Source: Catenulispora sp. EB89
GTDB lineage: Bacteria; Actinomycetota; Actinomycetes; Streptomycetales; Catenulisporaceae
Direction: 5' to 3'
DNA: 64,000 bases
Assembly: GCF_041261445.1 (NCBI RefSeq)
Contig: NZ_JBGCCU010000010.1
Coordinates: 1 to 64,000 of the forward strand
Positions 12,823 through 15,863 of the stretch are shown here, piece after piece. Position 1 is the first letter of the stretch. Each line of letters starts with the position of its first letter. The translations under genes and the position numbers were made by a program. The notes below the pieces were generated by a model. That model saw only the letters and a list, made by a program, of their open reading frames with translations, was not told the DNA's origin and did not search any database.

Positions 12823-12998
12823 TGGTGCCCACCGAACGCGGCAGGCAGCCGCCCGCACGACGTGTGCGCAGTGACTCGGACCTGTGCGTGGTCGTGATTG
12901 CGAAAATCGGCGGCCGCCAGCGCGACTTGTGGCGCTGAACCGAACTGCGTCCCCCTGCGAGGTCACCAAACCTTGGGCGAAGCCGTAAAAATGGGCGC
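12823..12998. repeat. Dispersed intergenic repeat, copy B
   Basis: Same orientation as copy A. It contains GGTGCCCACCGAACGCGG (12823), GTGTGCGCAGTGACTCGG (12862) and GGTCACCAAACC (12961) with the GGCGAAGCCGTAAAAA segment following. Only one internal unit is present, unlike the three in copy A. Confidence 0.85.
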
Positions 12999-13316
12999 CC
13001 CTGCTTGATGTGTGGGTGCGGTTTGTTGGTGGGTTTTAAGAGCTTTTTACGGCTTCGCCTAAGGTTTGGTGACCTTGCTGGGTGGCGCAGTTCGGTGGTG
13101 CGCCTGGGGACGCGTTGGCGGCCGGCGGTTGTTCGTGTGCACGACCGCGCACCGGTCCGAGTCACTGCGCACACGTTTGGTCTGGCGGCTGGCGGCCGCG
13201 TGTGGTGGGCACCTGAAGTCAAAGACAGGGCCTCCGGCGGCGCCTGCGCGGCGAGCGGCACTCGCTCCGGGGAGGGGGGCCGCGCTGTTGGGTGCCGGTC
13301 GTTGCTTGTGGTCGCC

Positions 13317-13476
13317 TTGTCCCGGGTTCCCCGTCGCGTCGTCGCCTGACGGAAGCAGACCGGTCCGGTGGTATCAAGTCGGACCCCTGCTGCTGTGGTG
13401 CGGTTTCGTGCGACTTGACACCACCGGCCCGGTCAGCTTGGCTACGCCCGCCGACGCGACGGGGAACCCGGGACAA
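13317..13476. repeat. Nested palindrome P1
   Basis: The outer arms 13317-13341 and 13452-13476 are perfect 25-bp complements. The inner arms 13358-13381 and 13411-13434 match at 22 of 24 positions around a ~29-nt centre. It would fold into a ~160-nt hairpin as RNA or single-stranded DNA. Confidence 0.85.
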
Positions 13477-13504
13477 CCCCGGCCTGTGGTGTGGACACGG
13501 TCCA

Positions 13505-13547
13505 CTCGGGCGCGCACACCTGCGGGTGGTGACGTGGCGCGCCCGAG
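13505..13547. repeat. Central hairpin of the giant inverted repeat
   Basis: CTCGGGCGCGC (13505-13515) pairs perfectly with GCGCGCCCGAG (13537-13547). Its centre coincides with the symmetry axis of the whole block. Confidence 0.75.
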
Positions 13548-13576
13548 ATGCGGGAATCCTTCCCACAGTGGGGGTT

Positions 13577-13738
13577 GTCCCGGATCCCTCGTCGCTGTCG
13601 GCGGTGCTTGCACAACCATCCCGGACTGGCGGGGTCAAGCCGGACGAAACCCGACCACAGCAGCGTGTGATGCGGCTTTACCCCGCCAGGCCGGGATGGT
13701 TCCCTTTAGGGCGACGTCAGCGACGAGGGATCCGGGAC
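13577..13738. repeat. Nested palindrome P2 (inverted homologue of P1)
   Basis: The outer arms 13577-13597 and 13718-13738 are perfect 21-bp complements; the inner arms 13614-13642 and 13673-13701 match at 27 of 29 positions. The centre is the reverse complement of P1's centre (GCTGCTGTGG..GGTTTCGT), so P1 and P2 are diverged inverted copies. Differences between them on one arm are compensated on the other. Confidence 0.85.
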
Positions 13739-14090
13739 TCGGCGACCAACACTCGGACCGCCGCCGAGGCGGGGGGTTGGGGATCCCTCAGAGTCTCGAG
13801 TGCCCCCGCCGGAGGCGCCTGCTCTTGATCTTAGGCACCCACCACGCCCGACGATTGCCGCCCACGTAACGTGTGCGCAGTGACTCGGACCCGCGCGCGG
13901 TCGTGTCCACGCACAACCGCCGGCCGCCAACGCATCCCCAGGCACACCACCGAACTGCGCCACCCAGCGGATCCTTCTTAAAACCCTGCGAAGCCGTCAA
14001 AAAAAGCCCTTGACTGTCAACCCACCAACAAACCGCACCCGCCACCAGCACCCACACCACACATAGGTCAGCAGCGCCGAAAACGAAGAC

Positions 14091-15539
14091 TCAGAGAGCG
14101 TCTTCGGCGTCGTCGGCCAGCGTCCCGATCTGCACGACCCGCTCGGGATGCCGCTTCCAGAGCCATAGCAGGATGCCGAGTCCCACCAACAACCAGACCC
14201 CCACCGCCGGGCCGGCGTACGAGGCCGGGGGTGTCAGCTTGCTGACGAAGGAGAAGGCCGGCACGCCGGCCGCCGTCAGCAGCGGCGGCACGAAGGCGGC
14301 GATGCCCAGCAGCGGTACCAGGCCGTGTCGCAGCCAGGAGAATTCCTCGCGGCGGAAGCGGGCGAAGAAGCCGATGCAGGCCAGGTTGGCGATCATGTAG
14401 ATGGCGATGACCACGATGACGATCCCGGTCGCCACCAGGAGGAACGCAGAGGACGGACCCCACTTGAACCCGACCGCCAGTGTCGCGCCGACGGCGATGA
14501 CGAACTGGGCCGCGACCGCCACCACCGGTGACCGGAACCTCGGGTGCAGGACGGCCAGCTGCCGGGGCAGGACGCCGGCTCGCGCCAGGGCGAAGGCCGT
14601 GCGGGTGGAGGCGTTCAATCCGGCGTTGGCGTTCGCGATCGTCGAGTTCACGATGGCGAAGAACACGAGCACCCAGAACAGTCCGTAGGAGGCTTTGGCC
14701 ATGCTGGTCCACGAGTCGGCGCCGAACGCGGAGAACTTGTCGGGGCCGAAGGCCACCGCGGCGGCGTACGTCGTGAACACGTAGAGGGCACCGATCGCGA
14801 GCGTCGCGCCCAGGACCGCTTGGCGGATGGTGCGGCGCGGATCGCGTGCCTCCTCGGCCAATGGCGCGGCGGCCTCGAAGCCCGAGAACGCCAGGATCGT
14901 GTACACGGACCCTGCGATGACACCGGACATCCCGCGGTGCGCCTCGGGGGTGTGGCTCGTGCCGAACACCGACAGTGTGTTGTGATGGCCGGCTTTCACC
15001 ACGAACATCACGGCCAGCACCAGGAACACCGCGATCTCGAAGGCGCCGAGGACGGTGCCGAGCACCGTGCTGGTCTGGATCCCGCGATAGCCGGCGGCGG
15101 CGATCACCAGCGCGCCGACGATGACCCACGGCCACCACAGGTCGGCCGGGTAGGAGTGCCATTCGTCGTGCAGTATCGGCGCCACGGTGAAGCCCAGCTG
15201 GAGCAGCAGCAGCGTGGGCACCAGCGCTTGGACGAACACGTACATCCAGCCGACGACGAAGCCCGCGGCGGGGTGCAACCCGCGCCCGGCGTAGGCGCCG
15301 ACCGAGGCGGCCGCGGGCAGATGCCGCGCCAGCTCGGCGATGGAGTTCGCGGCCAGCAGGCAGGCCGCCATCGCCAGCAGCACCGACAGCGGCAGCGCGC
15401 CGCCGGCGAACGCGGCGCCGGAGGGGATGGAGGCCGCGATGGCGGCGCCGGGCGCCATCGCGGTGATGCTCTGGAACAGTACTTCGCGCAGGCCCACGGC
15501 ATCCCGGGCCAGTCCGGTTCGCTGCTGCACCTCGGTCAC
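14091..15539 (-). CDS. APC-superfamily amino acid permease
   Basis: 482 residues and about 12 membrane segments. The APC hallmark region lies near the N-terminus (LFQSITAMAPGAAIAASI), and the EEARDPRRTIRQAVLGA loop after SGFEAAAPLAEE is typical of the amino acid-polyamine-organocation family. It is probably an importer of an amino acid or amine. The GTG at 15539 is preceded by AGGAGT; the frame runs on to 15662 but those residues (Arg/His-rich) are not permease-like. It ends 31 bases from the repeat block. Confidence 0.92.
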   Translation of the reverse strand: MTEVQQRTGLARDAVGLREVLFQSITAMAPGAAIAASIPSGAAFAGGALPLSVLLAMAACLLAANSIAELARHLPAAASVGAYAGRGLHPAAGFVVGWMYVFVQALVPTLLLLQLGFTVAPILHDEWHSYPADLWWPWVIVGALVIAAAGYRGIQTSTVLGTVLGAFEIAVFLVLAVMFVVKAGHHNTLSVFGTSHTPEAHRGMSGVIAGSVYTILAFSGFEAAAPLAEEARDPRRTIRQAVLGATLAIGALYVFTTYAAAVAFGPDKFSAFGADSWTSMAKASYGLFWVLVFFAIVNSTIANANAGLNASTRTAFALARAGVLPRQLAVLHPRFRSPVVAVAAQFVIAVGATLAVGFKWGPSSAFLLVATGIVIVVIAIYMIANLACIGFFARFRREEFSWLRHGLVPLLGIAAFVPPLLTAAGVPAFSFVSKLTPPASYAGPAVGVWLLVGLGILLWLWKRHPERVVQIGTLADDAEDAL

Positions 15540-15863
15540 GACTGACTCCTGTCGCCGGCGGGGGTCGCGGTGGCGTGTACCTCGGAGTGCTACGAGCATT
15601 GAACGACGATGGAATCCGGCGTGCCCCCAGTCCTGTTCAGGATGAGGTAGCAGCCCGGTCACCCTATACAGTGCTCTGCTTCAATCCCCGAACTCTCACC
15701 ACCCATCAGCTCTTTCCATTCCGATCGGGACGGCAATCGTGAGACGCTCGGGGATAATCTCGGCGACCACCTCAAGCGGCGGCCGATGGCTTTGCGGCGG
15801 TCGCCGACCGCACGCCTCCGGACCTGGGCCGGCTCGCGCGCCGGCCCAGGTCCCGGTTGGCGA
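15540..15863. other. Gene-free region between GH54 gene and APC permease
   Basis: 324 bases. The right end holds the terminator of the arabinofuranosidase gene; the left end holds the AGGAGT ribosome site of the permease. The rest is presumably the permease promoter region; no convincing -35/-10 pair or operator is seen. Confidence 0.5.
15821..15852 (-). terminator. Hairpin terminator of GH54 gene
   Basis: GACCTGGGCCGGC and its perfect 13-bp complement flank a 6-nt loop, starting 12 bases after the stop codon. Confidence 0.8.

Follow-up and report, generated by a model that had tools for sequence, protein, structure and literature searches.

The closest described counterparts of the locus studied here are the ERIC, YPAL/RU-2, Correia/NEMIS, and QMITE2 repeats, with which it shares a non-autonomous nature, an intergenic position, target duplications, and a long stable hairpin (PMC2229807, PMC10969869). 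ERIC has an effect on upstream mRNA that varies with its orientation, and YPAL, 168 bp long, contains internal inverted repeats, is not rich in A+T, and has its targets at or adjacent to regions of dyad symmetry (PMC2229807). Bacterial hairpin repeats have usually been described from single folds. The locus lies in the window, i.e., the first 64,000 nucleotides of contig NZ_JBGCCU010000010.1 of Catenulispora sp. EB89 (an assembly of 11.9 Mb in 70 contigs). We found no description of this Catenulispora repeat in the literature and regard it as a bacterial foldback transposon with two divergent, structurally conserved 160-nt hairpins.

An earlier note on this DNA had described an imperfect palindrome of ~1.06 kb centered near 13,525. 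The palindrome is real, and same-genome copies sharpened its borders to 12994-14078, i.e., 1085 bp, with the center at about 13536. A repeat search of the window recovered outer arms of 101 nt at 13077-13177 and 13868-13968 (93% complementary) and of 22 nt at 13014-13035 and 14019-14040 (100% complementary). It also recovered the two hairpins, P1 and P2, which the note had taken to be inverted homologues and which both fold strongly. The features of the locus are as follows:

12824-12991, plus strand: arm remnant of another copy, directly adjoining the element on its left (81% identity to the inverted arm)
12994-14078, no strand: whole non-autonomous foldback element, 1085 bp (both ends fit the element-end consensus; same-genome copies)
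12994-13018, plus strand: left terminal repeat GGCGCCCCTGCTTGATGTGTGGGTG (end-pattern scan)
13014-13318, no strand: left arm, pairing with the right arm, at 93% over the outer-arm stretches given above (repeat search)
13319-13474, structure-bearing strand minus, outward from the axis: hairpin P1 (covariance model, fold)
13475-13576, no strand: axis separating P1 and P2 (no match in a sigma-70-type promoter scan)
13577-13738, structure-bearing strand plus: hairpin P2, inverted homologue of P1 (covariance model, fold)
13739-14054, no strand: right arm (repeat search)
14055-14078, minus strand: right terminal repeat GGCGCTGCTGACCTATGTGTGGTG in minus-strand reading (end consensus)
14084-14106, minus strand: terminator-like hairpin CGAAGAC..GTCTTCG, then TTTTC (read from the sequence)

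The block at 12824-12991 does not belong to this palindrome but is an arm remnant left by another copy. On the right side, the terminator-like hairpin sits at the 3' end of an amino-acid permease gene (14091-15662; permease by Pfam), and the element begins directly beyond the T-run of this hairpin. A second fragment of the same element family, without a hairpin, occupies 141-497 at the contig start, its end lying at 497. Pfam gave no match in the ORFs of the palindrome and its copies differ by many frame-breaking indels of 1-2 nt, which rules out a coding function and agrees with the earlier judgment that no coding frame is believable.

The earlier note was right about the structure of the giant palindrome but did not recognize its mobile nature, visible in 8-bp duplications and ISL3-type ends: the palindrome is a mobile element. 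Its terminal repeats have the form GGCGCYNCTG..TGTGTGGGTG, and aligned copies have the common ends GGCGCYNCTG[AC][CT]TKATGTGTGGGTG. An end-pattern scan of four genomes gave 116 matches, versus 1 for a reversed-pattern control, and the exact end pattern had no match in 84,980 species genomes, a set that may omit near relatives. Target duplications of 8 bp flanked 9 of 28 two-ended elements (eight palindromes and the ISL3 element L051), where the chance expectation for identical octamers, taken from mismatched end pairs, was 0.25; duplications of 4-7 or 9-12 bp flanked none of the 28. Two loci proved to be empty in relatives, where the target, or a sequence closely matching it, is present once: the site of L012 is empty in both G004 and G001, the latter being a finished genome of the genus (a single contig of 10,467,782 bp), and the site of L010 is empty in G004, where one CATTTTGT is present. 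The flanks of the window copy itself, TAAAAATG and GAAAACGA, agree at just 4 of their 8 bases, so this copy is an older or rearranged insertion.

Target sites were AT-rich, with an A+T content of 84-89% at flank positions -6 to -3 versus about 20-40% further out. Among the genes flanking the 28 elements, as called with a simple rule based on ORFs and GC3 and no gene caller, 34 had their 3' end towards the element versus 7 with the 5' end, and 11 of the 28 elements had a tail-to-tail gene setting by the same rule. Insertion into terminator stems was considered and rejected, as the 34 nt adjoining the target did not fold significantly better than flank farther away (Mann-Whitney p 0.14), and our claim is therefore limited to a bias towards gene 3' ends. 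The target CTAACAAAATGCC, found in the flanks of L004, L005, L010, and L012, is part of a ~60-bp sequence, TATAAATGCGTATAAGGGGCGA..CCCTAACAAAATGCC, which is repeated many times across several genomes of the genus; it is an insertion hot spot and may in itself constitute a repeat or a regulatory site.

A nucleotide search of the strain's own genome gave 114-117 matches to the element, comprising about 11 full-length copies (84-93% identity, the window copy itself aside) and dozens of partial ones. The element was present in 10 of 10 Catenulispora genomes and in none of 50 other genomes of the order, and an order-wide search with the hairpin covariance model likewise gave matches in 10/10 genomes of the genus and 0/40 outside it. 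G001 holds full inverted pairs together with copies that internal deletion has shortened to as little as about 240 bp. The hairpin also occurs singly, 2 to >100 times per genome, in half-elements made of one hairpin and one arm, which were among the many further matches of the covariance model. In half-elements L207-L222, the hairpin is preceded by a conserved leader, GGTGACGGGC...GGGGTGTTG, and the arm ends read GCCGTAAAAATCGCCTGTAAA; in L209, a single-hairpin element lies at 1591-2007, and its arm holds a 62-bp unit repeated 6.6 times in tandem. In copies L001-L011 of genome G000, P1-type and P2-type segments and two kinds of arm end occur in varying left-right orders, as if inverted arms recombine. 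Terminal inverted repeats, a fixed-length duplication, and a high copy number without a transposase are features of MITEs, but the 1085 bp of the window copy exceed the MITE size of about 50-600 bp, and we therefore call the element MITE-like or foldback and not a canonical MITE.

The element's ends are held in common with an ISL3-family insertion sequence, and its 8-bp duplications lie at AT-rich sites. The insertion sequence, L051 in G001, is an intact element of 1403 bp encoding a 425-aa transposase with DDE_Tnp_ISL3 (E 6.8e-71), HTH, and zinc-ribbon domains; its ends, GGCGCCCCTGACTTATCCGTGGGTT and GGCGCCTCTGACTCATCCGTGGGTT, and its 8-bp duplication, CATTTTTC, are as in the palindromes. G009 carries a remnant of an ISL3 transposase with 88% protein identity to that of L051, and the associated end, GGCGCCTCTGACCTATGTGTGGGTG, differs from the palindrome ends by only a couple of bases. 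The strain's own genome yielded no close ISL3 transposase homologue, only three distant PF01610 matches, which makes present mobility in this strain doubtful; the helper transposase may have been lost, be hidden in a gap of the assembly, or be more distantly related. Since the element codes for no protein and its own assembly is without a close transposase, we infer from the sequences that an ISL3-family transposase acts in trans, and the element is a non-autonomous foldback or MITE-like one, probably mobilized by ISL3. One palindrome, L044 (G009:C9:278800-282500), is interrupted at its axis (1115-2633) by an insertion sequence of the IS256 family, which has 24-bp inverted repeats of its own; L044 was considered as an autonomous copy and rejected, its central transposase belonging to this later insertion.

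We then turn to the hairpins. P1 (13317-13476) has a folding energy of -117.4 kcal/mol (z -11.3) and P2 (13577-13738) one of -112.5 kcal/mol (z -10.1). As the earlier note had reported, four arm positions distinguish their outer stems, namely 10 (G/A), 12 (T/C), 15 (C/T), and 22 (inserted T), and each stem is perfectly paired; the four compensated differences are present, but they are not fresh events at this locus and mark two old hairpin lineages found genus-wide. The note had named a lack of homologues with compensatory changes as refuting its reading; this outcome did not arise, as 31 diverse homologues show such changes. We gathered 110 distinct hairpins, of which 31 sequences less than 93% identical formed the first alignment, and all of the hairpins gathered face outward from the axis, the left one on the minus and the right one on the plus strand. 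RNAalifold predicted 49 pairs from the 31 sequences, 21 of them compensated on both sides; once the side hairpins were included, 96.2% of stem-pair cells were paired and 27 of 57 pairs had changed on both sides. None of 500 shuffles equaled this first set in pairing and covariation, and slid structures were at most 45% paired, so the compensatory changes exceed those of shuffled controls, as looked for in a structured RNA. A second set, drawn mostly from hairpins found by the covariance model and with a few members overlapping the first, was 95.6% paired, with both-side change in 26 pairs. Because hairpin copies are related by descent, the cells of these alignments are not independent events.

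A 5' mini-hairpin was present in 134 of 134 hairpins, with a GNA loop in 63 (N being C in 25, A in 19, and T in 19) and a CTTG loop in 43, and the loop of the 3' mini-hairpin was GUNA in 40. The mini-hairpin stems covary inside a single arm and independently of the opposite one, and a purine-purine mismatch at alignment columns 49/116 is A.G or G.A in most copies. The element's own arms folded no better than shuffles on the left (13014-13318; z -0.7) and with no excess on the right (13739-14069; z +1.0), and a larger structured RNA taking in the arms was rejected on this ground. An additional conserved hairpin immediately upstream of P1/P2 was likewise dropped, its predicted folds being inconsistent among copies. 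A known RNA family was rejected since Rfam gave no family at gathering score in the window, the hairpins producing only sub-threshold matches of microRNA type.

The two strands of the hairpins are not equivalent. The covariance model scored P1 at 163.6 bits on the minus versus 119.3 on the plus strand, and P2 at 157.6 bits on the plus versus 118.5 on the minus strand. When read on the outward strand, the first set held 169 G.U cells in 17 pairs versus 7 A.C cells in 6 pairs, and the second set 47 G.U versus 5 A.C cells; thus, G.U is tolerated and A.C is not on one strand, as in a structured RNA. In our own tally, which involves small numbers, the state occurred in more than one copy for 11 G.T versus 1 A.C pairs and in a single copy for 6 G.T versus 5 A.C, as if mutation supplied G.T and A.C equally and A.C were then removed. 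In 124 outward arms, C>T (3.5% per base) was no commoner than G>A (4.8%), which indicates no mutational bias towards G.T. A G.U excess without such a bias in the arms favors selection on one folded strand, whether RNA or single-stranded DNA, over palindrome correction. Together, the covariation among 31 homologues and the strand asymmetry support the earlier proposal that the folded form, be it RNA or an extruded single strand, has been under selection and that mere duplication is not the explanation.

Strand bias fails to separate RNA from single-stranded DNA, since G.T beats A.C in DNA too. The selected form could thus be an outward DNA strand that is extruded or exposed in replication or transposition and recognized by a protein, as for REP/IS200-IS605 or integron attC, a reading that we consider unlikely. 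It would account for a strand-specific fold within a mobile element. In addition, neither the element nor its immediate surroundings gave a sigma-70-type match in the promoter scan, so that any outward transcripts may arise by read-through or from another promoter type. Triloops of the GNA type have a very high stability in DNA, and the GNA loops of 63 of the 134 5' mini-hairpins would suit that molecule. However, the element's ends and its duplications of 8 bp are consistent with a DDE cut-and-paste enzyme (ISL3), which needs no internal hairpin, and hairpins that are internal, 160 nt long, and situated mid-element also argue against it; in searches of a general kind, no HUH or tyrosine transposase was linked to the element.

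We regard as improbable the explanation that the same mobile element keeps its pairing only by DNA-level correction of its arms (hairpin template switching or gene conversion), the folded strand being functionless. Arm correction yields compensated changes in any inverted repeat, and the left-right shuffling of P1-/P2-type segments and arm ends among copies implies that recombination between arms does occur. Yet correction treats both strands alike and predicts as many G.T as A.C, in contrast to the 169 to 7 and 47 to 5 observed with unbiased arms; it should erase mismatches, whereas the one at columns 49/116 persists in most copies; and the covariation of mini-hairpin stems within a single arm speaks against it as well. 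A static duplication, a telomere-like palindrome, or an assembly artifact has next to no chance of being correct: many draft contigs of the strain's assembly do end inside the element, and large palindromes often confuse assemblers, but this is refuted by the empty sites in relatives, the 8-bp duplications, and the same structure in the finished 10.47-Mb chromosome of the genus, which excludes the artifact that the earlier note had named beforehand.

We therefore return to the reading that we prefer and think likely to be right, i.e., a non-autonomous foldback/MITE-type DNA transposon with an ISL3 helper, whose two outward hairpins are kept by one-strand selection, likeliest as RNA. An ISL3-family transposase would move the element in trans, producing 8-bp duplications at AT-rich targets that lie mostly beside gene 3' ends. 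Outward or read-through transcription across the element would then give a hairpin RNA, in which a basal stem of ~19 bp leads through a junction bearing two mini-hairpins to a long apical stem whose mismatches are conserved; we infer RNA rather than single-stranded DNA as the likeliest form. Owing to the inverted placement of the hairpins, transcription from either side would carry one of them in the structured sense. By analogy with ERIC, YPAL, or Correia-like repeats, the probable effect would be on the processing, stabilization, or ending of transcripts at gene 3' ends, or else the benefit may be to the element itself. A wider reading, which we offer tentatively, is that of a genus-restricted family of structured functional RNAs, with up to >100 copies per genome, carried as cargo by ISL3-type foldback transposons, whose divergent pairs would give one folded copy from either side. 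With >100 copies and about ten species providing a stranded covariation signal, the choice among RNA, single-stranded DNA, and no function becomes directly testable.

The known systems set the element in context. It matches the intact ISL3-family element of the genus in its ends and 8-bp duplications, but has no transposase, and beyond the end sequence we saw nothing in common. With REP/BIME it shares high-copy extragenic palindromes and single-strand folding; REP/BIME units, however, measure 20-40 bp and bear GTAG/CGTC tags (PMC3733652), whereas the Catenulispora hairpins of 160 nt lie inside a transposon with 8-bp duplications, and on inspection of the sequence the stems of P1 and P2 were far longer and no GTAG/CGTC tag was found at the stem end. 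Foldback and Galileo resemble it in very long inverted arms that fill most of the element, internally deleted variants, and arm shuffling, but are eukaryotic, belong with other transposase superfamilies, and have no known structured hairpin pair (PMC2775673, PMC4168063); the long-armed foldback transposon type is here shown in a bacterium, with the likely helper transposase found in a relative. The ERIC, YPAL, Correia, and QMITE2 repeats, to which we found no sequence relation, are about 100-190 bp long with one hairpin, whereas the Catenulispora element is a 1.1-kb palindrome with two divergent 160-nt hairpins and ISL3-type ends, and, unlike for those repeats, the covariation and strand asymmetry of its hairpins have been measured across species.
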